A stretch of DNA of 64,000 nucleotides, from contig NC_049996.1 in NCBI RefSeq assembly GCF_000003815.2, positions 12,345,525 to 12,409,524 of the forward strand, given 5' to 3'. The position numbers and the translations under genes are program-made. This stretch comes from Branchiostoma floridae (Eukaryota > Chordata > Leptocardii > Amphioxiformes > Branchiostomatidae). Within the stretch, counting starts at the first letter, position 1. The number at the start of each line of letters is the position of its first letter. Shown here piece by piece: positions 2,121 through 33,542 of the stretch. The notes under the pieces were generated by a model. It searched no databases, was not told where the DNA came from, and saw only the letters and a program-made list of their open reading frames with translations.

Positions 2121-5100
2121 ATGTCCCGTATTCTGCAGATCGTAGGCAGAAGGGCAGCCTTCACACAGGCAGGGCTCCAAAATGTGCCAGTCTGGAGGCC
2201 GTTAGGGGGACGAAATGGCCGGGGGGCCGCCAGCTCAGCGGCTGCCACTGAACAAACCACCGTCCAGGACGGGGCTGCCCGACCGTTTGACGAGATTCCC
2301 GGACCGAGAGGGCTTCCCTTCATCGGCACCGCGTTGGACTACAGTCCGTTTGGTAAGGCTACGTTTTCTTAACGTGCACTTTGAATGACAGGTCACCTAC
2401 AGAATTCTGGTCAACGTTCGTTCGGTCGGTCGAGTACTCTCTGACCCCACTATGATATACTGTGTGTTTACTTACTTACTGTGCAAATACAGTGCAGTGG
2501 GTAGATACGTGCCCGAGTATAAGTTACTACAGAAATAGCTTGATTGTAAGCGAAGTTTTTTTTCACGAAGAGTACCTTATTCTATTCTACTCTACTTAAC
2601 TTTAACTTGCATTTTACTTGCAGAAATGTAAAACGTTTTATGTTTTCAAATTTGATAACCCTCTCTCTATTTTGAGACATTTTGTGACCTTCGCTTTACC
2701 TCTATATTTGCTTTGTGTGTATGTGATGTGGTTTATGGCCCTTAAACCTGAACAGATGCAATAAAGTCAACGTGTCGTAATTTCTACAGGGCGTTTTCCT
2801 ATACACACAAAAATGGCCAACTCAACAATTGAAAGGTACCAGACGTACGGAAAGATCTACCGGGAAAAGATCGGCCTAAGAGACATGGTGTTCGTGTGTG
2901 ACCCGAAGGACATCGAGACGGTTTTCAGGAGTGACGGTCGGCTTCCAGAGAGACCTATCCCAGAGTCCATCGCAACATACCGCCGACTCAAAAATAAACC
3001 GCTAGGCGTCGCGCTGCTGTAAGTTTTTGTTAAGAATAATTATGCACATGTACATTTGTAAAGCCATGAAAAGTATTCAATGCTCTTTGTTAGTAGAAGT
3101 CATTTCGGATCAGACTTGAACTTTAATTTCTAACACACAAATTGGACTTACCCCAATTTTCCACTCCATATTTGTCAGAAAGGCGTAAAATCCATTGCTT
3201 CTGTGCGGTCGTTAAGCAGAAGTTGCAGAGACGGGGGACGCCATAGGCTTCCTGCAAATCATGGTCCACTGCTCAGCTAGTCACGTATCTGCATACTAGT
3301 AACATAACGTCACATAGGCGGTGAAATTGCACATTGTTTGAGTTGGTCAGTAGGAAATTTGTGTTTGTTAAATTTTTGTGTGTTGGAAATTTCAGTCCTG
3401 ATTTAGCATTTGCTTACTTGTTTATGCAGAAATGGAGAAGAGTGGTTCCGCCTCCGAAGGTCTGTTAATAAGGACATGATGCGCCCAAAGGCGGTAGGTG
3501 CGTACGCCACAATGCAGGATGAGGTGTCCCGGGAGCTGGTCGGGCTGATACAAGGGGTGGTACGGAAGGGCAAGACCGCTGGACAGGTCCCCGACTTTAC
3601 CAAGCTCCTGTATAAATGGGGCCTAGAATGTGAGTCTTTGAAACATTATCATCATTGCGTTTACTTTAAAGTTTGTGAAGTGCAGACTGTGGGTTGTGTG
3701 TGGCGTAACTGGTAGAGAGAACCTAGAAGTCCCGAGTTCGATACCCGCCGTGCCCCGACGTTGTGCCCTTGGGAAAATCACTTAACACGACCTTCCTCAC
3801 TGCCCCCAGGTGTAAAAATGTGTACCTGACTTCAGTCGGGGATGTAATATACCTTTACCTTCTGTCTGTACTTTGTCTATGGCGTTCGTAAAATAAGCTA
3901 CTAAATCTTGAGTTCAGTGCCACATTGTCCTCGTCTGTCCGAAAGCAAATATATTTCTAAAATGTGCAAACTGTAGGATTAGCCTGTTTTGTTTTCACCG
4001 GTGTCTATGGGCACAGCCATGTTGGATATGTAGGCGTCACTCAGGCGCCATGTCATTGTTTATGAACACAAACACTCTGCTTGTAAGTCAAGCTGGCGGA
4101 TTTTTATTTTTCAGCCTTGAGTCTCGTTGTTCTGGGAAAACGCCTTGGCTGTTTGACCCTGGATCAACTCCCTGAAGATTCTGACGCGCAGCGTATGATC
4201 GGGGCGGTCAACGACTTCTTTTACAGTTTCGCCAAGCTTCAAATGTCGTTTCCCTTGTTCAGATACATCAGAACTCCTGGATGGACGACTTTTGAGAGAG
4301 CCATGGACACAGTCAGTAGGTGCGTATCTCTAGAGCGAATGACGTTTTACTTTTACAATTTACAAATTTTATCAGCCTTCTGGCATTTTGAAATCTTTAG
4401 CTTTAATCACGTGGTCACGAATTCTGCGCAATGAGACATTTTGGTGTCACCTTAGCATTACGGAGAAGATGATCGGCGAAAGGCTAGAGAAACTCCGCCA
4501 AATGGAAGAGCCTCCAGATGAGGCGGATTTTCTGACGAGCCTGCTGTCTCGGGAGGACATGAACTTGGACGAGGCCATCCAAATGTCGGTGGATTTATTG
4601 CAAGGTGCAATTGACACGGTGAGTCTAACTCAATATCAAAGCCGCAAAAATAAGTCATTGATAACGTGGAATTATTTTGTGTTATCAAATTCAATGGATG
4701 AATAAACTTTTTCACATGCATTCAAATCTGAAACAAATATGACAAACAGATTGGCAACGACAAATCCCATTCCGTCTCATTTTCATATTTCAAACCGAGA
4801 TGAAAGAGTAGCATAAAAATTCACTTGAGTTGGTAAATTGCATCAGGGATAAATCAAACTATCAAGTAAGGAAACTGGTCTCAATAGCCCTGGATCAAAT
4901 TGCTCTGGACACAGTACGTACTTCATGCAGTTGTGACGTCAGTTATAGGTCAAAGAAGGCAATAAACACCAGTGCACACCAACCGGGACGGGGGACGATG
5001 CCGACTTCCATCAACTTTTGACCCATTGCTGGCGTCACACGTGGTCAAGTCTCGTGTCCATAGCAACTGGGTCAGATAGTTGACGGCGACTGAGACATTC

Positions 5101-6036
5101 GTTTTCGATGAGTCCATTTTTTGAGCTGGCGAGGAGTTTAATTTCTCCACAAAGATTGTAGCCCTACCTTCATTTTTTTAATGCTTCAGACGGCACACAC
5201 TCTGGTCTTCAATCTGTACTGCCTGGCGAAAAATCCCGATGCTCAGCAAAAACTGTACGAGGAGATCTTGGAGGTTGTTCCACCAGAGCAGCCCATAGAC
5301 GACAGGGTGTTGAACAAGATGCACTATCTTCGTGCTGTGGTGAAGGAGACATTCAGGTACGTGATTCTGCATCTTCGTCAAATTAACTTAATTTTGTTAC
5401 ATAATACATTGTATAGATTGTGATCTGGAGGAATAGCCGATTCTACCGGTAGAGATCTAAATCGGGGTCTGTCAATTTGTAAATGCTTAAAGTATTCCCT
5501 ATAAAGACAGACTCTAAAGCCTTTCAACTCATGTCTCTTAAGATCAATTGAGTTACTTGAAATTCATTTTTTTCATAACCAGGAGACCACTCTAACACAT
5601 TCCCGAGTTCGACATCGTATTGTAGCAGTGTCAGTTGTCTGAAAACTTTTGTATCTTGACTAGTGATAAATGAGAGTGGTGGTGTTTGGGAATTTTCCGC
5701 TTAGGAGTTAACTTTACATCGTCTGTGCACAATTTACACCATGAATCTCCATATTGTTCCATTCTAAACAGGGTACCGTAACTTCGGCATACAAACACCC
5801 CTGTCTCTCTTTGACTCATTGGAACGATTTTAAGAAAACAGAAAGAAGAATTTTGTGTCAACTACACTGTATGTGATTGTTGTTGTTTTTTAATTTGGCT
5901 GATACGTTTCTTTAAATCCCTTCAGGATGTATCCGACCCTCTTGAGCACCGCACGGACCCTAACCCGTGACGTAGTGCTGTCGGGATATCACGTGCCTGC
6001 TAAGGTACTGTAACATCTTTGTAAATATACATAGTA

Positions 6037-6067
<31 letters not shown>

Positions 6068-9000
6068 GTTATAGTAACTGCCTTTTGCCTTTAGTGTTAG
6101 AGCACTTAACCGTATAGAGTACTGAGCAAAATTCTCAGTGAGTTTGTTCAAGGTTTGAACTGGGCATAATCAAGTTCAAAGGTGGTAAATAGCCCTTTTC
6201 TAGACTATGGTTGATACCATGTTTATGTCTCAGACGCATACTACCGGTGACAATGCATGCGCAGTTGAAATCGTGAACCCGCTTATAGCTGCCATGTAAT
6301 CTATCTTGAGTATGTATAAATTGCATGAAAGAAGTTTCATTTCCAATCGGGGTTAACTAGAAAGATAAGCAAACAAGTAAATAAGAAATATAAATTCAAC
6401 GGTGCACACCCCAGTTCTTCCGCGACCGGGGTCCGTGGTAGTCCGCGACCAAAAAGTGACGAAAGGCTTCCGAGGGCCCATGTTTGAGTTGACATTTCTC
6501 ATTATTTCCTGCGAAATAACATTAAACGGTTACATGGCTGAAAAGCGTAGGAAATGGTGTGTTTTTGGTGCAAATTGTGTTTTGGTCCGCGCGTTGCTTC
6601 CGCGATATCCCTACGCCTGAATGTAAAGAGGCCGGTGACCTAGATTTACCTCTGAAGCGCTGTGTCAAGCAAAGTTGCAATGCCGCGCGCCGTGGATGAT
6701 TAAAAAAACTGTAGTACTAGAATTTTCTTTATAATTGGCTGGATTAGTCTTTAGATTTTCCTCTTTCTGGCAGTATCAGTCGTGCTTGCCGGAAAAATCT
6801 TCTTCATCTGTTTTATCCAATGCGAAAATGCCCGATTTTGTGCATCATTTTTGACATGAAAATAATGTTTTTTCCCTGTAATTTTTCAAAATTAGAGAAG
6901 TTGAAGGATCGAAACTCAGTTGGTCTTGAAGCTGAAGGTATATCCTCTCACCCCATATACAGTTATTTTCCTTCAGGATAATTCCCTGGAAGAGATGGTC
7001 GCTAGACTTGAGGGTGTGCCGCCTCCATTTGAACCCCCAAATAAACTGGTGTGTGCCCCCTTAAAAGCACCCATCCTGAAAAAAGTATTAGTGATAATAG
7101 CCAACAAATTGCATTTTTCCCATGAAAGTGTATAGCCCCGATCGTATCTGACTGAAAAAAAGCCGGATTTCGCAGGTTTTGATATGATTCTACACTGTCA
7201 TGTAATGGGTGGATTTGCCCCCCTCCCACGCCCCCCCCCCCCCCAACACGGTCGCATAGCCTTCGAAGTGTGTGTGCTAAGCATAGATTGCATAAAACCT
7301 ACCGAAACATTGTTGTTTAAACTACAGTACCTCTTGGGCACTTTGAAATCGCATTTGAGCGTTTCACAATTGCTCCTACATTGAGAAGCAGGCATTTTCC
7401 AATGAAAAAAGGCCCCGATGACGTCACTTTCGCACTTTCCTTCCGAATCAAGTGTCAAGTTCGGTGTGGCGCTAGTTCTCGGCCTTAACACAAATAAGTT
7501 GCACTAATCCGAAGACACATCCCAAGGCTTCTTTATCTCACCGAGACCGACACCAAACTGTACAGCCTTATCTTAGCAGATGCCCGTTTATACCTTCATA
7601 GCCGCAAGAAGTGCAGCACAGACCTCCATCTTTACCAAAGGTACAACATTTAACTTCATTTTTCTACGAAATAAAAGGAGTCTTGCCAACGGAAACGCTT
7701 GGACGGGAAAGCTAGGTCTGTTCTCTACCCGATATGACCAAAAATTAACATTTCAAGTGCTTTCCGTTATAGCGCGGAACTTAAAACTGCATCGTTGTCA
7801 CTTCAGAACATAGGCCAGCGGCAGGTATTGTGACGTCATGAACTCAAATATGTTCTAAGAGGTTTACACCGTTTGTTCCAGTCAGAAATAGGAGGAAAGT
7901 GTGCTCCATCACACCAGCACCCCTCTGTCATTCCTTTTCATGGCCATAACTCTTTATTTAGCACGTATTGATAGCCTAAAACCTCTTCCATAGGACAAGC
8001 TCATTGTGACGTAATTGCTATTATGCGCATTGAATGGTATACCATCCTGGAGGCGCAAAAACAGCCTTCCGACACCGCAACTTTCAACCACCTGTTACTC
8101 GAGAAAGAAAAGTCGCAGACAACTCAAACTTGACATGACTATAGAGTATAATTTTTTAAAGTCATTGACGATATTAATCATAATTTGCATATATTAACGG
8201 TGCACACCCCAGTTCTTCCGCGACCGGGGTCCGTGGTAGTCCGCGACCAAAAAGTGACGAAAGGCTTTCGAGGGCCCAAGTTTGAGTTGACATTTCTCAT
8301 TATTTCCTGCGAAATGACATTAAACGGTTACATGGCTGAAAAGCGTAGGAAATGGTGTGTTTTTGGTGCAAATTGTGTTTTGGTCCGCGCGTTGCTTCCG
8401 CGATATCCCTACGCCTGAATGTAAAGAGGCCCGTGACCTAGATTTACCTCTGAAGCGCTGTGTCAAGCAAAGTTGCAATGCCGCGCGCCGTGGATGATTA
8501 AAAAAACTGTAGTACTAGAATTTTCTTTATAATTGGCTGGATTAGTCGTTAGATTTTCCTCTTTCTGGCAGTATCAGTCGTGCTTGCCGGAAAAATCTTC
8601 TTCATCTGTTTTATCCAATGCGAAAATGCCCGATTTTGTGCATCATTTTTGACATGAAAATAATGTTTTTTCCCTGTAATTTTTCAAAATTAGAGAAGTT
8701 GAAGGATCGAAACTCAGTTGGTCTTGTAGCTGAAGGTATATCCTCTCACCCCATATACAGTTATTTTTCTTCAGGATAATTCCCTGGAAGAGATGGTCGC
8801 TAGACTTGAGGGTGTGCCGCCTCCATTTGAACCCCCAAATAAACTGGTGTGTGCCCCCTTAAAAGCACCCATCCTGAAAAAAGTATTAGTGATAATAGCC
8901 AACAAATTGCATTTTTCCCATGAAAGTGTATAGCCCCGATCGTATCTGACTGAAAAAAAGCCGGATTTCGCAGGTTTTGATATGATTCTACACTGTCATG

Positions 9001-12000
9001 TAATGGGTGGATTTGCCCCCCTCCCACGCCCCCCCCCCCCAACACGGTCGCATAGCCTTCGAAGTGTGTGTGCTAAGCATAGATTGCATAAAACCTACCG
9101 AAACATTGTTGTTTAAACTACAGTACCTCTTGGGCACTTTGAAATCGCATTTGAGCGTTTCACAATTGCTCCTACATTGAGAAGCAGGCATTTTCCAATG
9201 AAAAAAGGCCCCGATGACGTCACTTTCGCACTTTCCTTCCGAATCAAGTGTCAAGTTCGGTGTGGCGCTAGTTCTCGGCCTTAACACAAATAAGTTGCAC
9301 TAATCCGAAGACACATCCCAAGGCTTCTTTATCTCACCGAGACCGACACCAAACTGTACAGCCTTATCTTAGCAGATGCCCGTTTATACCTTCATAGCCG
9401 CAAGAAGTGCAGCACAGACCTCCATCTTTACCAAAGGTACAACATTTAACTTCATTTTTCTACGAAATAAAAGGCGTCTTGCCAACGGAAACGCTTGGAC
9501 GGGAAAGCTAGGTCTGTTCTCTACCCGATATGACCAAAAATTAACATTTCAAGTGCTTTCCGTTATAGCGCGGAACTTAAAACTGCATCGTTGTCACTTC
9601 AGAACATAGGCCAGCGGCAGGTATTGTGACGTCATGAACTCAAATATGTTCTAAGAGGTTTACACCGTTTGTTCCAGTCAGAAATAGGAGGAAAGTGTGC
9701 TCCATCACACCAGCACCCCTCTGTCATTCCTTTTCATGGCCATAACTCTTTATTTAGCACGTATTGATAGCCTAAAACCTCTTCCATAGGACAAGCTCAT
9801 TGTGACGTAATTGCTATTATGCGCATTGAATGGTATACCATCCTGGAGGCGCAAAAACAGCCTTCCGACACCGCAACTTTCAACCACCTGTTACTCGAGA
9901 AAGAAAAGTCGCAGACAAGTCAAACTTGGCATGATTATAGAGTATAATTTTTTAAAGTCATTGACGATATTAATCATAATTTGCATATATTAAAAGCACC
10001 CATCCTGAAAAAAGTATTAGTGATAATAGCCAACAAATTGCATTTTTCCCATGAAAGTGTATAGCCCCGATCGTATCTGACTGAAAAAAAGCCGGATTTC
10101 GCAGGTTTTGATATGATTCTACACTGTCATGTAATGGGTGGATTTGCCCCCCTCCCACGCCCCCCCCCCCTCAAACACGGTCGCATAGCCTTCAAAGTGT
10201 GTGTGCTAAGCATAGATTGCATAAAACCTACCGAAACATTGTTGTTTAAACTACAGTACCTCTTGGGCACTTTGAAATCGCATTTGAGCGTTTCACAATT
10301 GCTCCTACATTGAGAAGCAGGCATTTTCCAATGAAAAAAGGCCCCGATGACGTCACTTTCGCACTTTCCTTCCGAATCAAGTGTCAAGTTCGGTGTGGCG
10401 CTAGTTCTCGGCCTTAACACAAATAAGTTGCACTAATCCGAAGACACATCCCAAGGCTTCTTTATCTCACCGAGACCGACACCAAACTGTACAGCCTTAT
10501 CTTAGCAGATGCCCGTTTATACCTTCATAGCCGCAAGAAGTGCAGCACAGACCTCCATCTTTACCAAAGGTACAACATTTAACTTCATTTTTCTACGAAA
10601 TAAAAGGAGTCTTGCCAACGGAAACGCTTGGACGGGAAAGCTAGGTCTATTCTCTACCCGATATGACCAAAAATTAACATTTCAAGTGCTTTCCGTTATA
10701 GCGCGGAACTTAAAACTGCATCGTTGTCACTTCAGAACATAGGCCAGCGGCAGGTATTGTGACGTCACGAACTCAAATATGTTCTAAGAGGTTTACACCG
10801 TTTGTTCCAGTCAGAAATAGGAGGAAAGTGTGCTCCATCACAAGAGCACCCCTCTGTCATTCCTTTTCATGGCCATAACTCTTTATTTAGCACGTATTGA
10901 TAGCCTAAAACCTCTTCCATAGGACAAGCTCATTGTGACGTAATTGCTATTATGCGCATTGAATGGTATACCATCCTGGAGGCGCAAAAACAGCCTTCCG
11001 ACACCGCAACTTTCAACCACCTGTTACTCGAGAAAGAAAAGTCGCAGACAACTCAAACTTGACATGACTATAGAGTATAACTTTTTAAAGTCATGGACAA
11101 TATTAATCATAATTTGCATATATTAAAAGCACCCATCCCGAAAAAAGTATTAGTGATAATAGCCAACAAATTGCATTTTTCCCATGAAAGTGTATAGCCC
11201 CGATCGTATTTGACTGAAAAAAAGCCGGATTTCGCAGGTTTTGATATGATTCTACACTGTCATATAATGGGTGGATTTGCCCCCCTCCCACGCCCCCCCC
11301 CCCCCAACACGGTCGCATAGCCTTCGAAGTGTGTGTGCTAAGCATAGATTGCATAAAACCTACCGAAACATTTTTGTTTAAGTTACAGTACCTCTTGGGC
11401 ACTTTGAAATCGCATTTGAACGTTTCACAATTGCTCCTACATTGAGAAGCAGGCATTTTCCAATGAAAAAAGGCCCCGATGACGTCACTTTCGCACTTTC
11501 CTTCCGAATCAAGTGTCAAGTTCGGTGTGGCGCTAGTTCTCGGCCTTAACACAAATAAGTTGCACTAATCCGAAGACACATCCCAAGGCTTCTTTATCTC
11601 ACCGAGACCGACACCAAACTGTACAGCCTTATCTTAGCAGATGCCCGTTTATACCTTCATAGCCGCAAGAAGTGCAGCACAGACCTCCATCTTTACCAAA
11701 GGTACAACATTTAACTTCATTTTTCTACGAAATAAAAGGAGTCTTGCCAACGGAAACGCTTGGACGGAAAAGCTAGGTCTATTATCTACCCGATATGACC
11801 AAAAATTAACATTTCAAGTGCTTTCCGTTAAAGCGCGGAACTTAAAACTGCATCGTTGTCACTTCAGAACATAGGCCAGCGGCAGGTATTGTGACGTCAC
11901 GAACTCAAATATGTTCTAAGAGGTTTACACCGTTTGTTCCAGTCAGAAATAGGAGGAAAGTGTGCTCCATCACAAGAGCACCCCTCTGTCATTCCTTTTC

Positions 12001-15000
12001 ATGGCCATAACTCTTTATTTAGCACGTATTGATAGCCTAAAACCTCTTCCATAGGACAAGCTCATTGTGACGTAATTGCTATTATGCGCATTGAATGGTA
12101 TACCATCCTGGAGGCGCAAAAACAGCCTTCCGACACCGCAACTTTCAACCACCTGTTACTCGAGAAAGAAAAGTCGCAGACAACTCAAACTTGACATGAC
12201 TATAGAGTATAACTTTTTAAAGTCATGGACAATATTAATCATAATTTGCATATATTAACGGTGCACACCCCAGTTCTTCCGCGACCGGGGTCCGTGGTAG
12301 TCCGCGACCAAAAAGTGACGAAAGGCTTTCGAGGGCCCAAGTTTGAGTTGACATTTCTCATTATTTCCTGCGAAATGACATTAAACGGTTACATGGCTGA
12401 AAAGCGTAGGAAATGGTGTGTTTTTGGTGCAAATTGTGTTTTGGTCCGCGCGTTGCTTCCGCGATATCCCTACGCCTGAATGTAAAGAGGCCCGTGACCT
12501 AGATTTACCTCTGAAGCGCTGTGTCAAGCAAAGTTGCAATGCCGCGCGCCGTGGATGATTAAAAAAACTGTAGTACTAGAATTTTCTTTATAATTGGCTG
12601 GATTAGTCGTTAGATTTTCCTCTTTCTGGCAGTATCAGTCGTGCTTGCCGGAAAAATCTTCTTCATCTGTTTTATCCAATGCGAAAATGCCCGATTTTGT
12701 GCATCATTTTTGACATGAAAATAATGTTTTTTCCCTATAACTTTTGAAAATTAGAGAAGTTGAAGGATCGAAACTCAGTTGGTCTTGTAGCTGAAGGTAT
12801 ATCCTCTCACCCCATATACAGTTATTTTTCTTCAGGATAATTCCCTGGAAGAGATGGTCGCTAGACTTGAGGGTGTGCCGCCTCCATTTGAACCCCCAAA
12901 TAAACTGGTGTGTGCCCCCTTAAAAGCACCCATCCCGAAAAAAGTATTAGTGATAATAGCCAACAAATTGCATTTTTCCCATGAAAGTGTATAGCCACGA
13001 TCGTATCTGACTGAAAAAAAGCCGGATTTCGCAGGTTTTGATATGATTCTACACTGTCATATAATGGGTGGATTTGCCCCCCTCCCACGCCCCCCCCCCC
13101 CTCAAACACGGTCGCATAGCCTTCGAAGTGTGTGTGCTAAGCATAGATTGCATAAAACCTACCGAAACATTGTCGTTTAAACTACAGTACCTCTTGGGCA
13201 CTTTGAAATCGCATTTGAACGTTTCACAATTGCTCCTACATTGAGAAGCAGGCATTTTCCAATGAAAAAAGGCCCCGATGACGTCACTTTCGCACTTTCC
13301 TTCCCAATCAAGTGTCAAGTTCGGTGTGGCGCTAGTTCTCGGCCTTAACACAAATAAGTTGCACTAATCCGAAGACACATCCCAAGGCTTCTTTATCTCA
13401 CCGAGACCGACACCAAACTGTACAGCCTTATCTTAGCAGATGCCCGTTTATACCTTCATAGCCGCAAGAAGTGCAGCACAGACCTCCATCTTTACCAAAG
13501 GTACAACATTTAACTTCATTTTTCTACGAAATAAAAGGAGTCTTGCCAACGGAAACGCTTGGACGGGAAAGCTAGGTCTATTCTCTACCCGATATGACCA
13601 AAAATTAACATTTCAAGTGCTTTCCTTTAAAGCGCGGAACTTAAAACTGCATCGTTGTCACTTCAGAACATAGGCCAGCGGCAGGTATTGTGACGTCACG
13701 AACTCAAATATGTTCTAAGAGGTTTACACCGTTTGTTCCAGTCAGAAATAGGAGGAAAGTGTGCTCCATCACAAGAGCACCCCTCTGTCATTCCTTTTCA
13801 TGGCCATAACTCTTTATTTAGCACGTATTAATAGCCTAAAACCTCTTCCATAGGACAAGCTCATTGTGACGTAATTGCTATTATGCGCATTGAATGGTAT
13901 ACCATCCTGGAGGCGCAAAAACAGCCTTCCGACACCGCAACTTTCAACCACCTGTTACTCGAGAAAGAAAAGTCGCAGACAAGTCAAACTTGGCATGATT
14001 ATAGAGTATAACTTTTTAAAGTCATGGACAATATTAATCATAATTTGCATATATTAAAAGCACCCATCCTGAAAAAAGTATTAGTGATAATAGCCAACAA
14101 ATTGCATTTTTCCCATGAAAGTGTATAGCCCCGATCGTATCTGACTGAAAAAAAGCCGGATTTCGCAGGTTTTGATATGATTCTACACTGTCATATAATG
14201 GGTGGATTTGCCCCCCTCCCACGCCCCCCCCCCCTCAAACACGGTCGCATAGCCTTCAAAGTGTGTGTGCTAAGCATAGATTGCATAAAACCTACCGAAA
14301 CATTGTTGTTTAAACTACAGTACCTCTTGGGCACTTTGAAATCGCATTTGAACGTTTCACAATTGCTCCTACATTGAGAAGCAGGCCAATGTCTAAGATT
14401 TAAGGCCCCGATGACNNNNNNNNNNNNNNNNNNNNNNNNNNNNNNNNNNNNNNNNNNNNNNNNNNNNNNNNNNNNNNNNNNNNNNNNNNNNNNNNNNNNN
14501 NNNNNNNNNNNNNNNTCCGAATCAAGTGTCAAGTTCGGTGAGGCGCTAGTTCTCGGCCTCAACACAAATAAGTTGCACTAATCCGAAGACACATCCCAAG
14601 GCTTCTTTATCTCACCGAGACCGACACCAAACTGTACAGCCTTATCTTAGCAGATGCCCGTTTATACCTTCATAGCCGCAAGAATTGCAGCACAGACCTC
14701 CATCTTTACCAAAGGTACAACATTTAACTTCATTTTTCTACGAAATAAAAGGAGTCTTGCCAACGGAAACGCTTGGACGGGAAAGCTAGGTCTATTCTCT
14801 ACCCGATATGACCAAAAACTAACATTTCAAGTGCTTTCCGTTAAAGCGCGGAACTTAAAACTGCATCGTTGTCACTTCAGAACATAGGCCAGCGGCAGGT
14901 ATTGTGACGTCACGAACTCAAATATGTTCTAAGAGGTTTACACCGTTTGTTCCAGTCAGAAATAGGAGGAAAGTGTGCTCCATCACAAGAGCACCCCTCT

Positions 15001-17957
15001 GTCATTCCTTTTCATGGCCATAACTCTTTATTTAGCACGTATTGATAGCCTAAAACCTCTTCCATAGGACAAGCTCATTGTGACGTAATTGCTATTATGC
15101 GCATTGAATGGTATACCATCCTGGAGGCGCAAAAACAGCCTTCCGACACCGCAACTTTCAACCACCTGTTACTCGAGAAAGAAAAGTCGCAGACAAGTCA
15201 AACTTGGCATGATTATAGAGTATAACTTTTTAAAGTCATGGACAATATTAATCATAATTTGCATATATTAAAAGCACCCATCCTGAAAAAAGTATTAGTG
15301 ATAATAGCCAACAAATTGCATTTTTCCCATGAAAGTGTATAGCCCCGATCGTATCTGACTGAAAAAAAGCCGGATTTCGCAGGTTTTGATATGATTCTAC
15401 ACTGTCATGTAATGGGTGGATTTGCCCCCCTCCCACGCCCCCCCCCCCCCCCCAACACGGTCGCATAGCCTTCGAAGTGTGTGTGCTAAGCATAGATTGC
15501 ATAAAACCTACCGAAACATTGTTGTTTAAACTACAGTACCTCTTGGGCACTTTGAAATCGCATTTGAGCGTTTCACAATTGCTCCTACATTGAGAAGCAG
15601 GCATTTTCCAATGAAAAAAGGCCCCGATGACGTCACTTTCGCACTTTCCTTCCGAATCAAGTGTCAAGTTCGGTGTGGCGCTAGTTCTCGGCCTTAACAC
15701 AAATAAGTTGCACTAATCCGAAGACACATCCCAAGGCTTCTTTATCTCACCGAGACCGACACCAAACTGTACAGCCTTATCTTAGCAGATGCCCGTTTAT
15801 ACCTTCATAGCCGCAAGAAGTGCAGCACAGACCTCCATCTTTACCAAAGGTACAACATTTAACTTCATTTTTCTACGAAATAAAAGGCGTCTTGCCAACG
15901 GAAACGCTTGGACGGGAAAGCTAGGTCTGTTCTCTACCCGATATGACCAAAAATTAACATTTCAAGTGCTTTCCGTTATAGCGCGGAACTTAAAACTGCA
16001 TCGTTGTCACTTCAGAACATAGGCCAGCGGCAGGTATTGTGACGTCATGAACTCAAATATGTTCTAAGAGGTTTACACCGTTTGTTCCAGTCAGAAATAG
16101 GAGGAAAGTGTGCTCCATCACACCAGCACCCCTCTGTCATTCCTTTTCATGGCCATAACTCTTTATTTAGCACGTATTGATAGCCTAAAACCTCTTCCAT
16201 AGGACAAGCTCATTGTGACGTAATTGCTATTATGCGCATTGAATGGTATACCATCCTGGAGGCGCAAAAACAGCCTTCCGACACCGCAACTTTCAACCAC
16301 CTGTTACTCGAGAAAGAAAAGTCGCAGACAACTCAAACTTGACATGACTATAGAGTATAACTTTTTAAAGTCATGGACAATATTAATCATAATTTGCATA
16401 TATTAACGGTGCACACCCCAGTTCTTCCGCGACCGGGGTCCGTGGTAGTCCGCGACCAAAAAGTGACGAAAGGCTTTCGAGGGCCCAAGTTTGAGTTGAC
16501 ATTTCTCATTATTTCCTGCGAAATGACATTAAACGGTTACATGGCTGAAAAGCGTAGGAAATGGTGTGTTTTTGGTGCAAATTGTGTTTTGGTCCGCGCG
16601 TTGCTTCCGCGATATCCCTACGCCTGAATGTAAAGAGGCCCGTGACCTAGATTTACCTCTGAAGCGCTGTGTCAAGCAAAGTTGCAATGCCGCGCGCCGT
16701 GGATGATTAAAAAAACTGTAGTACTAGAATTTTCTTTATAATTGGCTGGATTAGTCGTTAGATTTTCCTCTTTCTGGCAGTATCAGTCGTGCTTGCCGGA
16801 AAAATCTTCTTCATCTGTTTTATCCAATGCGAAAATGCCCGATTTTGTGCATCATTTTTGACATGAAAATAATGTTTTTTCCCTGTAATTTTTCAAAATT
16901 AGAGAAGTTGAAGGATCGAAACTCAGTTGGTCTTGAAGCTGAAGGTATATCCTCTCACCCCATATACAGTTATTTTCCTTCAGGATAATTCCCTGGAAGA
17001 GATGGTCGCTAGACTTGAGGGTGTGCCGCCTCCATTTGAACCCCCAAATAAACTGGTGTGTGCCCCCTTCAAGACACAAACAACGTTTAATCTAGAACTT
17101 CCATGATCAACTTCCAGACCAATGTTATGCTGGCTCAGAATGTCATCAGCACACTGCCGGAGTATTATCCGGAACCGGAATCATACATACCGGAGAGATG
17201 GCTCCGGACTGAGTCATCAAACGTCCAGTCATTCTCCCTTCTGCCTTTTGGATATGGACCAAGGATGTGCATTGGTAAGTGGAGGTTGTTTGTGTGTCTA
17301 GCATGAATAGAAATGAAATACAAGTACATGATAAATACATGATAGTATTACTCAACAATCATGCTTATCAATACTTAATGATCATCCAAGGTACCATATA
17401 TATCTACATGTAGTCTGCTCTTTAATACGTACTTTCTTCTTTCACCTTTTCATCAACAGGTCGCCGTTTTGCGGAACAGGAGTTGTACCTTGGTTTGGTC
17501 AGGGTGAGTTTGTTTTAATGCATGTCACAATCATTTCAAAGAATCAACTTGGGAAAGCAAAACTTGAAATAGTCGCACGTGTAGTTGTAGCATGTCTGAT
17601 ATGGCGGACAGACCTAATATGTTTTGAATTTTTACAGCACACAGCACATGGCTGTAGTAGAACAAGTAACTGCATCGTAGAGCACATATGATTAACATTG
17701 CAATACAACATTACAAGTGACTGGTCCTGTTATTAAGGTAAACACTTGGCCTTTTATGCATAGGTTTTGTCCAGTATACAAGTGACTGTTCCTGTCAAGG
17801 TACATACACTTATTCTTTTATGCATCTTCTTGAATGTTTCGCACAGATCATCCAAAACTTCCATGTTGGTTGGGACGGAGAAGACATGAAGCAAGTGTGG
17901 AGGATTTTCAATGCACCGGACAGGGACACGTTCGTCTTCAGCGAGAGGAAAAGTTAG
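2121..17957 (+). CDS. Mitochondrial-clan cytochrome P450, complete, 10 exons
   Basis: Exons: 2121-2352, 2790-3018, 3430-3629, 4115-4319, 4456-4618, 5190-5356, 5926-6004, 17118-17274, 17460-17503 and 17847-17957. All junctions are GT-AG and the frame is continuous, giving 528 aa, a normal P450 length. The N-terminus (MSRILQIVGRRAAF...) is Arg-rich, Ala-rich and free of acidic residues until about residue 43, as in a mitochondrial import peptide. A proline-rich hinge (IPGPRGLPFIG) follows. The I-helix reads GAIDTT (about 339-344), the K-helix is ETFR (396-399), the PERW motif is in exon 8, and the heme loop is FGYGPRMCIG (469-478) with Cys476 as heme ligand. The sequence resembles the CYP24/CYP27 mitochondrial clan: sterol or vitamin-D-type hydroxylases that receive electrons from adrenodoxin. 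The substrate cannot be assigned. Intron 7 (6005-17117) is enlarged by a repeat array. Confidence 0.93.
3691..3860 (+). mobile_element. tRNA-derived SINE in P450 intron 3
   Basis: The head resembles a tRNA gene, with box A-like TGGCGTAACTGGTAGAG and box B-like GAGTTCGATACCC. A shared tail containing 'cccttgggaaaatcacttaa' and 'ccttcctcactgcccccagg' follows. Related copies are at 41240-41370 and, reversed, at the right end near 63.6 kb. No tRNA cloverleaf is preserved, so this is a retroposon and not a tRNA gene. Confidence 0.75.
6036..6068. repeat. (GAT)n microsatellite
   Basis: About ten GAT/ATG triplets just inside P450 intron 7, about 30 bp after the exon 7 donor. On the minus strand it reads as a run of His codons in a small spurious frame. 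Confidence 0.9.
6400..7060 (+). mobile_element. Module H, copy 1 (TIR element, 661 bp)
   Basis: The 5' end (cggtgcacaccccagtt) and the reverse complement of the 3' end (gggggcacacaccagtt) match at about 14 of 17 positions, an imperfect terminal inverted repeat. The left flank is TTCAA and the right flank TTAA. An internal plus-strand frame of about 72 aa (6402-6620) resembles no transposase I can name, so the element looks non-autonomous. This copy has a few private changes from H2-H4 (for example T for A near 6481). Confidence 0.7.
7061..8197 (+). repeat. Module B, copy 1
   Basis: It begins TTAAAAGCACCCATCC and ends GCATATATTAA, so it has TTAA at each end but no terminal inverted repeat. 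It contains a C-homopolymer near 7228, a short open frame at 7580-7813 (77 aa, plus), a second at 8015-8197 (60 aa, plus) and one on the minus strand at 7198-7491 (97 aa). All recur in the other copies. None has a recognisable domain. Confidence 0.8.
8198..8858 (+). mobile_element. Module H, copy 2
   Basis: 661 bp, flanked on both sides by TTAA (8194-8197 and 8859-8862). At B-B joins such as 9990-9993 the same position holds one TTAA, giving clean filled-site and empty-site comparisons within one array. Confidence 0.75.
8859..12258 (+). repeat. Module B, copies 2, 3 and 4 in direct tandem
   Basis: Three B units abut without H at TTAA 9990-9993 and TTAA 11123-11126 (periods 1131, 1133 and 1132 bp). 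The 77-aa plus frame recurs at 9376, 10509 and 11641. In B4 the minus frame is extended (11103-11552) because its C-run length keeps two segments in phase. Confidence 0.8.
12259..12919 (+). mobile_element. Module H, copy 3
   Basis: 661 bp, flanked by TTAA on both sides (12255-12258, 12920-12923). It carries private substitutions around 12736-12750 relative to the other three copies. Confidence 0.75.
12920..16406 (+). repeat. Module B, copies 5, 6 and 7 in direct tandem
   Basis: Joins without H are at TTAA 14054-14057 and 15268-15271. Copy 6 contains the only assembly gap (14416-14515, 100 N). The 25 bases before the gap do not match the other copies at the same place, which suggests a contig-end error. 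B7 is closest to B2 in its variant bases (for example 'aaaaggcgtcttgcc' and 'gacgtcatgaactc'), so unit order is not simple head-to-tail copying of neighbours. Confidence 0.8.
14416..14515. other. Assembly gap (100 N)
   Basis: Exactly 100 N characters inside B6, a conventional placeholder of unknown true length. The number of array units should therefore be taken as a minimum. Confidence 0.99.
16407..17067 (+). mobile_element. Module H, copy 4 (right end of array)
   Basis: 661 bp. The left flank is TTAA (16403-16406) and the right flank TTCAA (17068-17072), the mirror image of copy 1. It ends 50 bp before P450 exon 8. Confidence 0.75.
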
Positions 17958-26677: not shown

Positions 26678-29398
26678 TCAGACAGTACTTTCCCAGACCG
26701 TCACACAGTCATCAGCACAGTCACCAACTTCCCTAACTAGCTCAGCAAGTCTTTCTTCAAGTTGAGCAGCAGTCGGTCTGTGGTCAGAAGCATCATACCA
26801 ACACTGACACATCAGTCTGTACAGGTCAATGGAACACTGTTCAGGCTTCTCCATGCGATTTCCTTGCCGAAGCATGTTGACCATCTGACAACAGTTTGGT
26901 CGGAAAGGCCCAGGATAGCGCGGCTCTTCTCCTAGACTGGCAATCTCCCACAACATGACACCAAACGACCACACGTCACTCTGACAGGAGTAAATTCCAT
27001 CTCGGATAGACTCCAGTGCCATCCACTTCAGCGGGAGTAACTCGTCTCGCCCGTGGTGATTGGTGTGCTCGTACACAGTGTTGGTGTAGACGTCTCGGGC
27101 CAAACCGAAGTCTGCCAGCTTAGCGACCATTCCGTCTGTGATGACCACGTTCCGAGCGGCCACGTCACGATGGACAATTGTGACTCTTTCTAGCTCCTGT
27201 AGAGCCTTAGATACACCGATGGCGAGACCAAATAGAGTGGCCCAGTTCACCGCGTTGATGTCGTCTCGGAGTCTTTTCAGGTACATCTGAAGGTCTCCGT
27301 GAGGGGCAAATTCTAATATTATCCTCTTCGGGTCAGACAGGGTAACAACGCCGTACAGCTGAATGATATTTGGGTGCATAACTTTTTCACCTTCCTTTGT
27401 GTGTAAGGATCTGTCGTAAAGGTAGATCAGCATGTCCATCTCACGATTGAAATCCGCTTGGACATACTCTGCGTTGGTGTCCACTATTTTGACTGCTACT
27501 CTTACCGGTAGTTCTCCAGGAAGATGTAGGGTTCCTTCTACAACATGGCCGAATGTGCCAACCCCGACCAGGTTACCCAGGGTCAGGTACTGCGGGTCTC
27601 GTTCCCATGGCACTAACGTGTCTGCCATGTTCTGTTGATGATTGACATCAACAAGCTGCAGTTCCTCGTGAACTGGTTGTTGATGTTGTTCCTTGAGAAA
27701 TTTTCTTTTTCTTCTCATAACTATACAAGCAACTACTACAACAGGAAGGATGAAAACAAGTATAGTAAAATACTGTAAGGTGTCCTGTGTCCTATGAAAT
27801 GGACTACGTTGCTTCCCTTTGCAGTATTCTCCTGTCAGGTCATGCGGACAGATGCAAGTGCCATTGAAAGGGTTGCACTCCGCACCGTTTTCACATCGAC
27901 ATTGTTGTTTGCAGTTTGTCCCAAATGTTCCTGCAGGGCAGGACATGTTACAGGTAGGGCCTGTCCAACCGGCCTCACATACACACCCCGCCCAACGGTC
28001 ACAACCAACGTTATGTAGACAGTCGCACGGCCTGTCACAACGCTCCCCGTGAAGACCGGGAGGACATTCCATCACATCTAAGACGTAGTTTCTCTCCAGT
28101 GTGTGTCCATCAGATGTGGTGACTTCACACGTATACACACCGTTGGTCTCTGGTAGAATCGGACTGATTGAAAAGTTACGGGACGTTTGGATGAAAATTT
28201 TGGAACTGTTGTTGCGAGATGCCCGAAACCACCATGTCATGGACGAGGCATTGATATGAACAGGGCGACATTGTAGGGAAACATTCCCAGTTATATACAT
28301 GTTTCCTTCAGGCCGGACGTCAATAGCGACAGCTGGGGTTGGTATGTCGCATGCCACACCCTTCCAACCAGGAGCACACAGACACGCCCCGTTGAAGCCG
28401 TGACACCGGGCGTCGTTCTTACAAATACAGTTTTTGTCACAGTATGCGCCGTATTTACCTTGTGGACAACCAGCAAGTTTTACAGTGGTTTGACCTGTAA
28501 AATTTAATTCTCCGTAGGGAGCTGAAGCCATCACTTTCGTTAATACCAACTTAATTGTCACGGGGGTAGCTGTTTTGAGTATGCCAAGCTTGACAAGAAC
28601 AAAATAACTATACCTTTCATTGTCAACCCACATAGCATTCAAACCTTTAGAGGCAACGAGTTCGGAAAATGCCATAGGCAGCAAGAATGGTATATCAGGC
28701 TCTCTAACCCAGTCTCTGTCAATCAGAATCGCTGACACCTTGTTGTCTCCTGCCACACAGCACAGCGTCAGATTATGGACGCCAGCTTTTGACATCACAT
28801 GAGCTACTGCAACATCTTGGACATGTTTGATTCCAAACGTCACATTCACTTCGCATATGTCGTTCGTCACACTAAAGTACGCTGTGCTTTTTTTCACATT
28901 CACAATATCAGTCTTGTTACTGATCTTTAATCCATTTCTTGATGAGCCGTTCAGTAACAAATCAGTGAACTCTATCAATCTAGGAAGACCAGAGGATCTT
29001 TCGGGGGTTTCACATGTTTTGTTGTAGTATGGAGGGTATCCAGACACGTCCAGTACATGAACAGTCAGGGTCCAGAGTGAGGCATTTTTAGCGAGGTTGC
29101 GTTCGTTGTCTATTCGGATTTGCAGCTGATAAGTCGACTGTATTTGAAAATCCAATGGATTAGCAACTTCGACAACACCTTGCCTTTCTGCTATCGAAAA
29201 CCTTTCATAGTCGTTACCATTAAGTAGTCTGTAAATCACTGGCTGTAGGGAAGTGTTGTGACGGGCAACGACTGTTCCTACTAAGGCGTTTTCGGGAACA
29301 AACACGGCTGTATTGATAGACGCCATGCCTCCAACCATGGATGATAAAGTAAGGATGTATTGAAAACACAACATCCCGGAGATCCAAGGATAGATCAT
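26678..29398 (-). CDS. Receptor tyrosine kinase 1 (cadherin-like/EGF/Ig/EGF/TM/kinase), intronless coding region
   Basis: One uninterrupted frame of 906 aa. Order: signal peptide (about 1-24); cadherin-like domain (31-118: VFVPENALVGTVV ... LTVHVLDVSGYPP); a variable region without a recognised fold (about 125-305); EGF/laminin-type EGF (310-351); Ig-like domain (353-442, Cys377 and Cys424); two EGF-like modules (444-527); membrane segment (about 543-561) with a basic stop-transfer RRKRK; tyrosine kinase (604-890). The kinase has GVGTFG (612-617), Lys637, HRDVAARN (743-750), DFG (763-765) and activation-loop Tyr771 and Tyr776, so it should be active. HRDxAARN marks it as a tyrosine kinase. 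The domain order matches no vertebrate RTK class I know. Two paralogues follow on the opposite strand. A 3' splice site just before the ATG (ctgtag, ending 29423) indicates a spliced 5' UTR. Confidence 0.92.
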   Translation of the reverse strand: MIYPWISGMLCFQYILTLSSMVGGMASINTAVFVPENALVGTVVARHNTSLQPVIYRLLNGNDYERFSIAERQGVVEVANPLDFQIQSTYQLQIRIDNERNLAKNASLWTLTVHVLDVSGYPPYYNKTCETPERSSGLPRLIEFTDLLLNGSSRNGLKISNKTDIVNVKKSTAYFSVTNDICEVNVTFGIKHVQDVAVAHVMSKAGVHNLTLCCVAGDNKVSAILIDRDWVREPDIPFLLPMAFSELVASKGLNAMWVDNERYSYFVLVKLGILKTATPVTIKLVLTKVMASAPYGELNFTGQTTVKLAGCPQGKYGAYCDKNCICKNDARCHGFNGACLCAPGWKGVACDIPTPAVAIDVRPEGNMYITGNVSLQCRPVHINASSMTWWFRASRNNSSKIFIQTSRNFSISPILPETNGVYTCEVTTSDGHTLERNYVLDVMECPPGLHGERCDRPCDCLHNVGCDRWAGCVCEAGWTGPTCNMSCPAGTFGTNCKQQCRCENGAECNPFNGTCICPHDLTGEYCKGKQRSPFHRTQDTLQYFTILVFILPVVVVACIVMRRKRKFLKEQHQQPVHEELQLVDVNHQQNMADTLVPWERDPQYLTLGNLVGVGTFGHVVEGTLHLPGELPVRVAVKIVDTNAEYVQADFNREMDMLIYLYDRSLHTKEGEKVMHPNIIQLYGVVTLSDPKRIILEFAPHGDLQMYLKRLRDDINAVNWATLFGLAIGVSKALQELERVTIVHRDVAARNVVITDGMVAKLADFGLARDVYTNTVYEHTNHHGRDELLPLKWMALESIRDGIYSCQSDVWSFGVMLWEIASLGEEPRYPGPFRPNCCQMVNMLRQGNRMEKPEQCSIDLYRLMCQCWYDASDHRPTAAQLEERLAELVREVGDCADDCVTVWESTV

Positions 29399-30842
29399 TT
29401 TACTATGTGGATTGTTCGGAACCTACAGTGTGAAGGAAGATAATATATCAGTTAACTACATATGAACTTACAACACAGAAAAGACGTCAATTGAATACTG
29501 TCATAGCGAAGAAGGTAGCGAAACAGAACTTAAGATTGGCAGTTCCGTCTTGGTTATTCTAGTGCCCTAAACCATAAAGTCTCCTGTTTTACTTCCATCA
29601 ACACTTTATCCAATGAACAAATATTTTTTTTTCATGCAACATGAACCACATGCCTGTTCTGTCATTACCAATCCTGGCGAGACATAGGGAATCTGAAATA
29701 TCTCTTCGAGACACTTTTGATAACATCCTTGTATAAACTGGGCTTAACATTTTTGCATGGCAAGTTGACTTCAGGTCACAGGTATGCGGAACTAGCAGGT
29801 GTTATTGGTCCATGGCGTGACAACCACACAAGGAAATTATGCTTTTCACCGACTCAGGTGTTCAAGTCAATTCCGTATCTGACGCTTATTTACGATTTAA
29901 ATTTCTGTTTATATCATTTTCATCTTTCAGAGATATTGTTAAATCCCAGCCATATGTCAGGAGAGATGATAGTAAAATTCGAATAAAGACGCAAAGGTAA
30001 TATAGTACAACACAAGGCCAAGGGTCTGTAAAATGTAAAACATACATGCAACACAAAAATATAAAGCATAACCTCGGTCATGCTGAGCATTGTATTTTTT
30101 CTGATATAAATCAACAAATCTATACCATTGACCATCGTACGCGAGGTAATGAATCTAATTCCATCCTGTAAATAGTCAATCAAAGATTAACTTAACTAAT
30201 AACTTACCTGTGCGCCAACTTACCCACACGCATTTGCCAAATTGTCCAACTGTCGTCGGTGTTCCTTTTCCGCGTTGATACTAACGGTTCCACTTCCGCA
30301 AACTCGCCCGGCGCACGGTCTGCAGCGTATCCCTCCGCACATAAAATAGTACCAGGAATATCCTTACTACTACTACTCGTCATCACTAGATTTCTACAAG
30401 GAAAAATGCTTACTACGAACACTCATCATCTAGATTTCTACACATTCCACATTTGAACTTAGTGTCTTTTTAATAATTACTTTTTGTTGATTTTTCCAGG
30501 CACATTTACTTCCACAGAGAAAAAGAGCTCGAGTTTCACCCCCTTTGCTATCAGTACAATATGGAGTAATGTTGCTACTGTGTAGAGCGATTTAGGGATA
30601 TATACCGTTTAAAAAATTGTGATATTTGTATTTCCATTTTACAGGATACCAATTCTGCTGAATGAAAAAGAAAGACTTGGTCTGCTTACATAAAAGCGGA
30701 ACTTCCATGTCACACAAAACTGAACAAACAATGGATCACGATTTTTTTAGGATTATTGTCAACTCATATTATCAGGAAGTACTAATCAATTATTATTTTA
30801 CCACCTCAGATATCCTAGTCTCGAAGCAGACGTGATATAGTG
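29399..30842. promoter_or_regulatory. Divergent intergenic region between RTK1 and RTK2
   Basis: On the minus strand CAG|gtaagtt (exon end 30208) could be the donor of a noncoding RTK1 first exon joining the acceptor at 29423. On the plus strand an acceptor (ccacctcag, ending 30809) precedes the RTK2 start by 33 bp. The block 30200-30842 is homologous to 34190-35193: both share 'ccacttccgcaaactc' in the minus-strand exon and 'gcggaacttcc' nearer the plus gene. A shared two-way promoter is the simplest reading. Confidence 0.5.
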
Positions 30843-33542
30843 ATGGGCCTGCGATCCTCGGACATGATGAGCCTTACACTCAGTCTTGCTTTAGTCTCTG
30901 TAGTTGGAGCCAAAGAATCTTTCAATACAACTGTGTTTGTTCCCGAAAACGCCCGAGTAGGAACAGTCGTTGCCCATCATAACACTTCCCTGCAGTTGCC
31001 AAGGACATACAGACTACTTGATGGTAATGCCTATGGTCGGTTTGGCATAGCAGAAAGTCAAGGTGTTGTGGAAGTTGCCAATCCATTAGATTATCAAATA
31101 CAGTCGACTTATCAACTGCAAATCCTGATTGACAACGGACGCAACTTCACTGAAAACACCATAGTCTGGAACCTGACTGTTCATTTACTGGACGTGTCTC
31201 GATACCCCCCTTACTACAACAAAACCTGTGAAACCCCGGAAACATCCTCTGGTATCGGTCTCACGCGTCTAGTAGAGTTCACTGACTTTTTCGTACATTT
31301 GTCAGCAACCATTGGATATACATTTAAAGACTCATCTGATATTGTCAATTATAAGAAGCGTAAAGTGTACTTTAGCTTTGAAGATGACAGCTGTGAAGTG
31401 AACTTTACAATCGGAGTCAGCCATGATAAAGATGTGGCGTATATGAATTATCTTATGAAAGCTGACTACAGAAGGTTAACGCAGTACTCAGAGGATGGAA
31501 AAAACAAGTTGTCGTTGTTTGTTGTCTTACAGGATTACTATGCACTTCTTGATGCCGGACGCATCGATCCGACGTGGATCACTGGTTTTAACACGTACAG
31601 GTACTTTATTCTCGTTAGCCTCGGCACACTTAAAACAGGCACACCTGTGGCATTCAAAAGATCAGTGGCAAACTTTATGGCTCCAAGTCCGTACGGAGAA
31701 TCAAATCTTACAGCTCAAATTACTTTCAAACTTGCTGGTTGTCCACATGGAAAGTACGGCGCATACTGTGACAAAAACTGCACATGTAAGAACGACGCCC
31801 GGTGTCACGGCTTCAACGGGGCGTGTCTGTGTGCTCCTGGCTGGAAGGGCGTGTCATGCGACATACCAACCCCAGCTGTTGCTATTGACGTCCGGCCCGA
31901 AGGAAACATGTATATAACTGGGAATGTTTCCCTACAATGTCGTCCTGTCCATATCAATGCCTCGTCGATGACGTGGTGGTTTCGGGCATCTCGTAACAAC
32001 AGTTCCAAGGTTTTTATCCAAACTTCCCGTAACTTTTCAATCAGTCCAATTCTACCAGAGACAAATGGCGTGTACACGTGTGAAGCCACCACATCTGATG
32101 GACAGACACTGGAGAGAAACTACGTCTTAGATGTGATGGAATGTCCTTCCGGTCTTCACGGGGAGCGCTGTGACAGGCCGTGCGACTGTCTACATAACGT
32201 TGGTTGTGACCGTTGGGCGGGGTGTATATGTGAGGCCGGTTGGACAGGCCCTACCTGTAACATGTCCTGCCCTTCAGGAACATTTGGGACAAACTGCAAA
32301 AAACTATGTCGATGTGAAAACGGCGCGGAGTGCAACCCTTTCAACGGTACTTGCATCTGTCCGCCGGACCTGACAGGAGAATACTGCGAAGGGAAGCAAA
32401 GTAGTCCATTTCACACGACACATGACACCTTACAGTATTTTACTTTACTTCTTTTCATCCTTCCTGTTGTAATAGTTGCCGTTGTAGTTAGGAGAAGAAG
32501 GAAATTTCTCAAGGAACAACGGCAGCAACCAGTTCACGAGGAACTGCAGCTTGTTGAGGTCAATCAAGAACTGAACATGGCAGACACGTTAGTGCCATGG
32601 GAACGAGACCCGCAGTACCTGACCCTGGGTAACCTGGTCGGGGTTGGCACATTCGGCCATGTTGTAGAGGGAACCTTGGAATTGCCTGGAGAACTACCGG
32701 TAAGAGTAGCTGTCAAAACTGTGAACGCCAAAGACAATTCTGGATATGTCCAAGCGGATTTCAATCGTGAGATGGACATTCTGATCTACCTTTACGACAG
32801 GTCCTTACACATGAAGGAAGATGAAAAAGTTATGCACCCAAATATCATTCAGCTATACGGTGTTGTTACCCTGTCTGACCCGAAGAGGATAATACTAGAA
32901 TTCGCCCCTCACGGAGACCTTCAGATGTACCTGAAAAGACTACGAGACGACATCAATGCAGTGAACTGGGCCACTTTACTTGGTTTTGCCGTCGGTGTAT
33001 CTAAGGCTCTACAGGAGTTAGAAAGAGTCACTATTGTCCATCGTGATGTGGCCGCTCGGAATGTGGTCATCACAGACGGAATGGTCGCTAAGCTGGCAGA
33101 CTTCGGTTTGGCCCGAGACGTCTACACCAACACTGCGTACGAGCACACCGATCACCACGGGCGAGACGAGTTACTCCCGCTGAAGTGGATGGCACTGGAG
33201 TCTATCCGAGATGGAATTTACTCCTGTCAGAGTGACGTGTGGTCGTTTGGTGTCATGTTGTGGGAGATTGCCAGTCTAGGAGAGGAGCCGCGCTATCCTG
33301 GACCTTTCCGACCCAACTGTTGTCAGATGGTCAACATGCTTCGGCAAGGAAAGCGCATGGAGAAGCCTGAACAATGTTCCATTGACCTGTACAGACTGAT
33401 GTGTCAGTGTTGGTATGATGCTCCTGACCATAGACCGACTGCTGCTCAACTTGAAGTAAGGCTTGGGGATCTTGTGGAAGACGCAAACAATAGGGTCCCA
33501 GCAAATGACGTTGTTGTTTTCGAGTGGGAAACTACCTTGTGA
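30843..33542 (+). CDS. Receptor tyrosine kinase 2, paralogue of RTK1, intronless coding region
   Basis: 899 aa from the ATG at 30843 (the codon before it is GTG). Same module order as RTK1: signal peptide, cadherin-like domain (VFVPENARVGTVV ... LLDVSRYPPYY), variable region, EGF, Ig, two EGF, membrane segment (LLLFILPVVIVAVVV), kinase with GVGTFG, VAVKTV, HRDVAARN and DFG. The kinase and EGF/Ig parts differ from RTK1 and RTK3 at only scattered residues, while the region between the cadherin-like domain and the first EGF is strongly diverged. Many N-x-S/T sites in the ectodomain fit a cell-surface receptor. It ends ...VFEWETTL, close to the VWETTV tail of RTK3. No intron interrupts the frame. 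Confidence 0.92.
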   Translation: MGLRSSDMMSLTLSLALVSVVGAKESFNTTVFVPENARVGTVVAHHNTSLQLPRTYRLLDGNAYGRFGIAESQGVVEVANPLDYQIQSTYQLQILIDNGRNFTENTIVWNLTVHLLDVSRYPPYYNKTCETPETSSGIGLTRLVEFTDFFVHLSATIGYTFKDSSDIVNYKKRKVYFSFEDDSCEVNFTIGVSHDKDVAYMNYLMKADYRRLTQYSEDGKNKLSLFVVLQDYYALLDAGRIDPTWITGFNTYRYFILVSLGTLKTGTPVAFKRSVANFMAPSPYGESNLTAQITFKLAGCPHGKYGAYCDKNCTCKNDARCHGFNGACLCAPGWKGVSCDIPTPAVAIDVRPEGNMYITGNVSLQCRPVHINASSMTWWFRASRNNSSKVFIQTSRNFSISPILPETNGVYTCEATTSDGQTLERNYVLDVMECPSGLHGERCDRPCDCLHNVGCDRWAGCICEAGWTGPTCNMSCPSGTFGTNCKKLCRCENGAECNPFNGTCICPPDLTGEYCEGKQSSPFHTTHDTLQYFTLLLFILPVVIVAVVVRRRRKFLKEQRQQPVHEELQLVEVNQELNMADTLVPWERDPQYLTLGNLVGVGTFGHVVEGTLELPGELPVRVAVKTVNAKDNSGYVQADFNREMDILIYLYDRSLHMKEDEKVMHPNIIQLYGVVTLSDPKRIILEFAPHGDLQMYLKRLRDDINAVNWATLLGFAVGVSKALQELERVTIVHRDVAARNVVITDGMVAKLADFGLARDVYTNTAYEHTDHHGRDELLPLKWMALESIRDGIYSCQSDVWSFGVMLWEIASLGEEPRYPGPFRPNCCQMVNMLRQGKRMEKPEQCSIDLYRLMCQCWYDAPDHRPTAAQLEVRLGDLVEDANNRVPANDVVVFEWETTL

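Follow-up and report, generated by a model that had tools for sequence, protein, structure and literature searches.

A putative KolobokP-type transposon multimer in a P450 intron of Branchiostoma floridae

An intron of a P450 gene in Branchiostoma floridae is occupied by an array of two kinds of repeated module, here called H and B, which alternate singly on one side and in blocks on the other. The locus raises the question of what kind of element could be built in this way and by which route it could have reached its present number of units. We examined the array, its joints and its sequence variants within the window, that is, the whole 64-kb stretch of DNA analysed, and compared them with published descriptions of mobile elements.

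Layout of the array and its intron

Direct reading and script placement at 6395..17072 gave the order H-B-H-BBB-H-BBB-H, with every module on the plus strand (Table 1). The first-pass annotation had described four 661-bp H modules and seven B modules of ~1.13 kb with H at both ends, and the script recovered the same modules in the same order. All four H copies have the same length and orientation, occupy both outermost positions and differ pairwise at 2-10 sites per 661 bp. Six of the seven B units measure 1131-1135 bp; pairwise differences number 4-21 per ~1132 bp among these six copies and 20-30 per ~1114 bp where B6 is included. With direct H and B copies at 97-99.8% identity, the repetition cannot be chance. 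Searching with blastn revealed no further copies of H or B elsewhere within the 64-kb window.

Table 1 Features of the array and of the flanking P450 exons, in window positions. The script-cut limits of every B next to an H omit the preceding TTA and the following A that complete its TTAA ends.
Feature	Positions	Strand	Basis
P450 exon upstream of the intron, coding portion as read	5927..6004	+	Pfam p450 335-359
Left target-site duplication, TTCAA	6395..6399	.	sequence read directly, joint list
H1, LTDR, 661 bp	6400..7060	+	script
B1, INT	7064..8196	+	script
H2, LTDR, 661 bp	8198..8858	+	script
B2, INT	8862..9992	+	script
B3, INT, single TTAA at B2-B3 joint	9993..11125	+	script, joint list
B4, INT, single TTAA at B3-B4 joint	11126..12257	+	script, joint list
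H3, LTDR, 661 bp	12259..12919	+	script
B5, INT	12923..14056	+	script
B6, INT with 100-N assembly gap 14416-14515, single TTAA at B5-B6 joint	14057..15270	+	script, joint list
B7, INT, single TTAA at B6-B7 joint	15271..16405	+	script, joint list
H4, LTDR, 661 bp	16407..17067	+	script
Right target-site duplication, TTCAA	17068..17072	.	sequence read directly, joint list
P450 exon 3' of the intron, end as read	17118..17273	+	Pfam p450 361-412

At 1214 bp, B6 is longer than the other B units because of the 100-N gap inside it, which, judged against B7, replaces 19 bp provided that no other sequence is missing. Since whole modules could be absent at this gap, the copy number and order across it are provisional and given as assembled. 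In the 15-column stretch adjoining the gap, 10 columns deviate from the other six copies. These deviant bases lie just ahead of the gap (14387-14515), where a 19-base string is unique in the window, and they are likely a contig-end error.

The centre of H holds an imperfect 40-bp palindrome (columns 297-336; in H1, 6696-6735), and 3 of 200 shuffles gave one equally good. It is at most a weak candidate for a nuclease or transposase site.

The exon pieces on either side of the array align with adjoining stretches of the Pfam p450 profile, in agreement with the first-pass annotation, which had placed the array in a P450 intron. The downstream piece matches with E = 5.4e-14 and is presumably the haem-binding region of the P450; the upstream piece, of 26 aa, has an E of 0.13 and falls below the cut-off. 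The continuity of the profile backs this weak first match and supports the reading of both pieces as consecutive P450 exons. Two upstream open reading frames taken as further P450 exons (4087-4434 and 4343-4705) gave no Pfam match. The intron (6005-17117) has GT...AG ends and is 11,113 bp long; the array adds 10.7 kb to it, and with the array removed 440 bp would be left. Between the end of H4 and the following P450 exon lie 50 bp, of which 45 bp remain after TTCAA.

Joints, ends and likeness to KolobokP

Twelve joints were compared: three from H to B, three from B to H, four between B units and the two outer ones. All 10 inner joints are fixed to the same base within their class (3/3, 3/3 and 4/4, respectively). 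B begins and finishes with TTAA wherever it adjoins H, and each of the four B-B joints holds one TTAA, so that 4 bp are missing by comparison with two complete INTs placed end to end. On both outer sides the array is flanked by TTCAA, and its inner flanks are TTAA. This distribution, with TTCAA at the outermost flanks only, had been reported in the first-pass annotation and is borne out by the joint list; the accompanying view of H as the end module and of the outer TTCAA as a target duplication is supported as well.

The ends of H form inverted repeats in which 14 of 17 bp match, a value equalled by one of 200,000 random 17-mer pairs from the window. With its limits set by TTCAA, H reads CGGTG...CCCCC and has the terminal bases CG...CC. 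Alternative limits, AACGG...CCCCC, yield termini AA...CC, a duplication of only 3 bp (TTC) and an INT-INT loss of only 2 bp.

These features can be set beside those of KolobokP, DNA transposons with LTDRs of ~450 or ~660 bp around an INT (Kojima and Bao 2022, PMC9587614). According to the sections of that paper drawn on here, the LTDR carries its own inverted repeats of 11-18 bp, perfect or imperfect. The 661-bp H agrees with the longer length class, and its 17-bp ends fall within the range of the inverted repeats. KolobokP also occurs as solo LTDRs, whose duplications are mainly 3-4 or 4-5 bp depending on the family; the outer TTCAA fits the latter class, and in these sections a strong target preference is not seen. 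Multimers of the form (LTDR-INT)n-LTDR share LTDRs and mostly keep their outer target duplications. Where INT meets INT, the joints are almost always 3-4 bp short, just as 4/4 joints here are 4 bp short. The INT of KolobokP-1_MeMe has TATA at both of its ends, and INT-INT joints retain just one of them, a single 4-bp INT end as in our array, with TATA there and TTAA here. Mixed KolobokP multimers likewise contain INT runs without an LTDR between them. The present insertion combines seven INTs, including two runs of three, which is more than in the mixed multimers spelled out in those sections (PMC9587614), yet it is most likely of the same kind.

Size and coding content point in the same direction. 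A monomer H-B-H of this array would by arithmetic measure ~2.46 kb, inside the range of 1,738-3,261 bp given for oyster non-autonomous KolobokP families (PMC9587614). KolobokP-7N2_CorFlu, at 2,453 bp with an LTDR of 664 bp, resembles it by description in having direct end repeats of ~660 bp and a monomer near 2.45 kb, and KolobokP occurs in three Branchiostoma species (PMC9587614). In autonomous members the INT encodes a DDD/E transposase and a His-Me finger nuclease, and a non-autonomous class is also included (PMC9587614). Between stops, the longest frame here reaches 154 aa in B and 77 aa in H. Neither the B frames of 154 and 78 aa nor the H frames of 77, 72, 71 and 64 aa have Pfam matches, and no transposase or nuclease gene was found in the array among its longest frames and in the Pfam scan of those listed. 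B thus fits a non-coding INT, and the array is non-autonomous at best.

In its target duplication the array departs from the Kolobok superfamily at large, whose TTAA-specific 4-bp duplication is not found, the outer duplication being TTCAA and TTAA occurring only at the inner LTDR/INT joints. The termini are a possible misfit with KolobokP itself: Kolobok termini, those of this lineage included, follow 5'-RR...YY-3', whereas those here are CG...CC at the ends set by TTCAA and become AA...CC only with the 3-bp TTC duplication, which would bring the INT-INT loss below the 3-4 bp of KolobokP. Compared with KolobokP by its published description, the array is nevertheless very probably a non-autonomous KolobokP-type multimer, LTDR-INT-LTDR-(INT)3-LTDR-(INT)3-LTDR; this assessment covers its identity as such a multimer and not any one route of growth. 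An early reading of H as a plain TTAA-type MITE inside a B satellite was dropped for the LTDR/INT element of Kojima and Bao (PMC9587614). That account also answers the first-pass annotation, which knew of no described element with such a structure (PMC9587614). Among the matches listed, no other described element of this structure was recognizable by title and abstract. A 27-base pattern from the 5' end of H had 0 matches in viral contigs. This is expected for an animal element.

Routes of growth and rival explanations

We propose that an element bounded by H would have inserted at TTCAA, with transposase provided by another, autonomous copy. Further units would then have accumulated at the site as LTDRs or INTs recombined homologously, either through unequal crossover or through uptake of LTDR-INT circles, which would leave the outer duplication intact. 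An INT-INT joint could have formed when an LTDR was excised together with one 4-bp TTAA, and could then have spread by unequal INT exchange; the four identical joints are more simply explained by one excision and such exchange than by four excisions. The published routes that spare the outer duplication are unequal crossover, recombination in which a solo or full copy takes up an LTDR-INT circle, and repair of a break made by the element's nuclease (PMC9587614). In the same account, outer duplications rule out recombination between copies at different loci, INT-INT joints come from excision of an LTDR or monomer with loss of a few flanking bases, and multiplication is modelled, not observed (PMC9587614).

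The first-pass annotation had likewise proposed that homologous recombination expanded the array, with a circular or tandem H/B satellite as the partner. Growth of this kind fits, and its circular form corresponds to the circle route of PMC9587614 with a larger circle. Its sequence of events, a solo H followed by a circle, is one of several published routes (PMC9587614), but the variants do not single it out. A more specific version, in which a solo LTDR was enlarged step by step as breaks led it to take up LTDR-INT circles, the breaks being made in the LTDR, whose centre holds the palindrome, by the nuclease of an autonomous copy, is in our view improbable. If true, it would make this a locus where the speculative circle and nuclease models of PMC9587614 can be tested by allele comparison.

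Ten columns vary among the four H copies. Five are private to H1 (71, 82, 119, 235 and 351) and three to H3 (479, 483 and 488), and at columns 530 and 571 H1 and H4 share one state and H2 and H3 the other. H1 and H4 are identical over columns 352-661, which could be a conversion tract or ordinary homogenisation. The three private variants of H3 lie within 10 bp (window 12737-12746) beside a small A/T palindrome, a clustering expected ~5% of the time by chance under a uniform model, and may share a single origin, for instance in conversion or template switching. Among the B units, B1, B2 and B7 resemble one another, with 4-6 differences, and a ring arrangement would place them close together. 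We therefore compared B orders using 18 of the 47 variable columns, omitting 27 columns where one copy alone deviates (10 of them B6 columns by the gap) and two C-run length columns. Arranged as a ring the units require 50 changes, a value equalled or undercut by 7.5% of the 5,040 orders; arranged as a line they require 46, equalled or undercut by 14.6%. Many columns are linked, which lowers the information in the test further; it is not informative and favours neither circular nor linear B ancestry.

These variants bear on the strict form of the first-pass model, which treats H as a small transposon in its own right, once solitary in the intron, and B as a satellite with no relation to it; a circle of H and B would then have recombined into the solo H. 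The model accounts for outer flanks that are unlike the inner ones, and the placement of all five H1-private sites in the 5' part (columns 71-351) would be expected if that part belonged to an older solo H. However, all five sites would fall in columns 1-351 out of 661 with a probability of ~0.04, for a boundary picked post hoc, which makes the pattern weak, and the private 3' variants that the model predicts in H4 are not seen. The B variants, as described, lend it no help, and the fixed H/B joints together with the published LTDR/INT architecture (PMC9587614) make H and B one element. The 10 inner joints, all fixed at this locus as they are in LTDR/INT elements, speak against the notion of an independent insert and a satellite. 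The first-pass annotation had itself named H and B units joined genome-wide at one fixed boundary as the observation that would speak against it; the joints of this one locus supply that observation in part. We consider the strict model very unlikely. Even less probable is an assembly artefact in which repeats from different loci were piled together. The single 100-N gap within B6 and the deviant bases alongside could suggest this, but the outer TTCAA pair matches, variants differ between copies and the p450 profile runs on across the intron.

Two further explanations concern how the units came together. The multimer may have been assembled at another site and then transposed into the intron as a single macrotransposon, with the transposase acting on the left terminus of H1 and the right terminus of H4. 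With the four H modules in direct orientation, the outermost ends do make a complete pair. The maize element Ac, a member of the hAT superfamily, offers a parallel. Macrotransposons are known for Ac, in which a large mobile unit can be delimited by the outermost ends of a linked pair of elements, but these have an 8-bp duplication and are not LTDR/INT arrays (PMC9910405). A span of 10.7 kb should be cut more rarely than a single LTDR or monomer, common recombination would suffice for growth in place, and nothing in the H or B variants decides; we regard arrival of a ready-made multimer as unlikely, though worth keeping in mind. A tandem LTR retrotransposon or TRIM, with H as the LTR and B as the internal part, would share with the array its direct repeats, a 5-bp duplication and H units held in common by tandem copies, and TRIM arrays, as portrayed in PMC9587614, are indeed tandem units with terminal direct repeats, but they are retrotransposons. 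H has 17-bp inverted ends and not TG...CA, whereas LTRs have no terminal inverted repeats besides TG..CA (PMC9587614). Pfam matches are absent from the frames scanned, and by eye no primer-binding site was seen after H and no purine tract before it. We rejected this reading for the unfit H ends, CGGTG...CCCCC, and find it scarcely credible.

Neighbours in the window and significance of the locus

Other repeats and gene families occur in the same window. A minisatellite at 633-812 consists of ~5 copies of a 36-bp unit. Three similar receptor tyrosine kinase genes, seemingly single-exon, lie at 26678-29422 (-), 30819-33542 (+) and 35143-37935 (+), the first in inverted orientation with respect to the others. 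In all three, Pfam matches to kinase and cadherin pass the cut-off and those to Ig fall below it; the trio would be a gene-family expansion, perhaps by retrocopies. Reading frames with Pfam Cu-oxidase matches at 40061-41020 (-) and 47440-48378 (-) are probably two multicopper-oxidase genes or a tandem duplication.

The array copies, the gap-damaged B6 aside, are <2% diverged, and the insertion appears to be young. Effects on splicing are possible from its position in the P450 intron. Otherwise it looks like an ordinary example of the KolobokP-type kind. With its seven INTs and its outer duplications preserved inside a gene intron, it is a convenient locus for studying how multimers grow, since a population could carry solo, monomer or multimer alleles of it.
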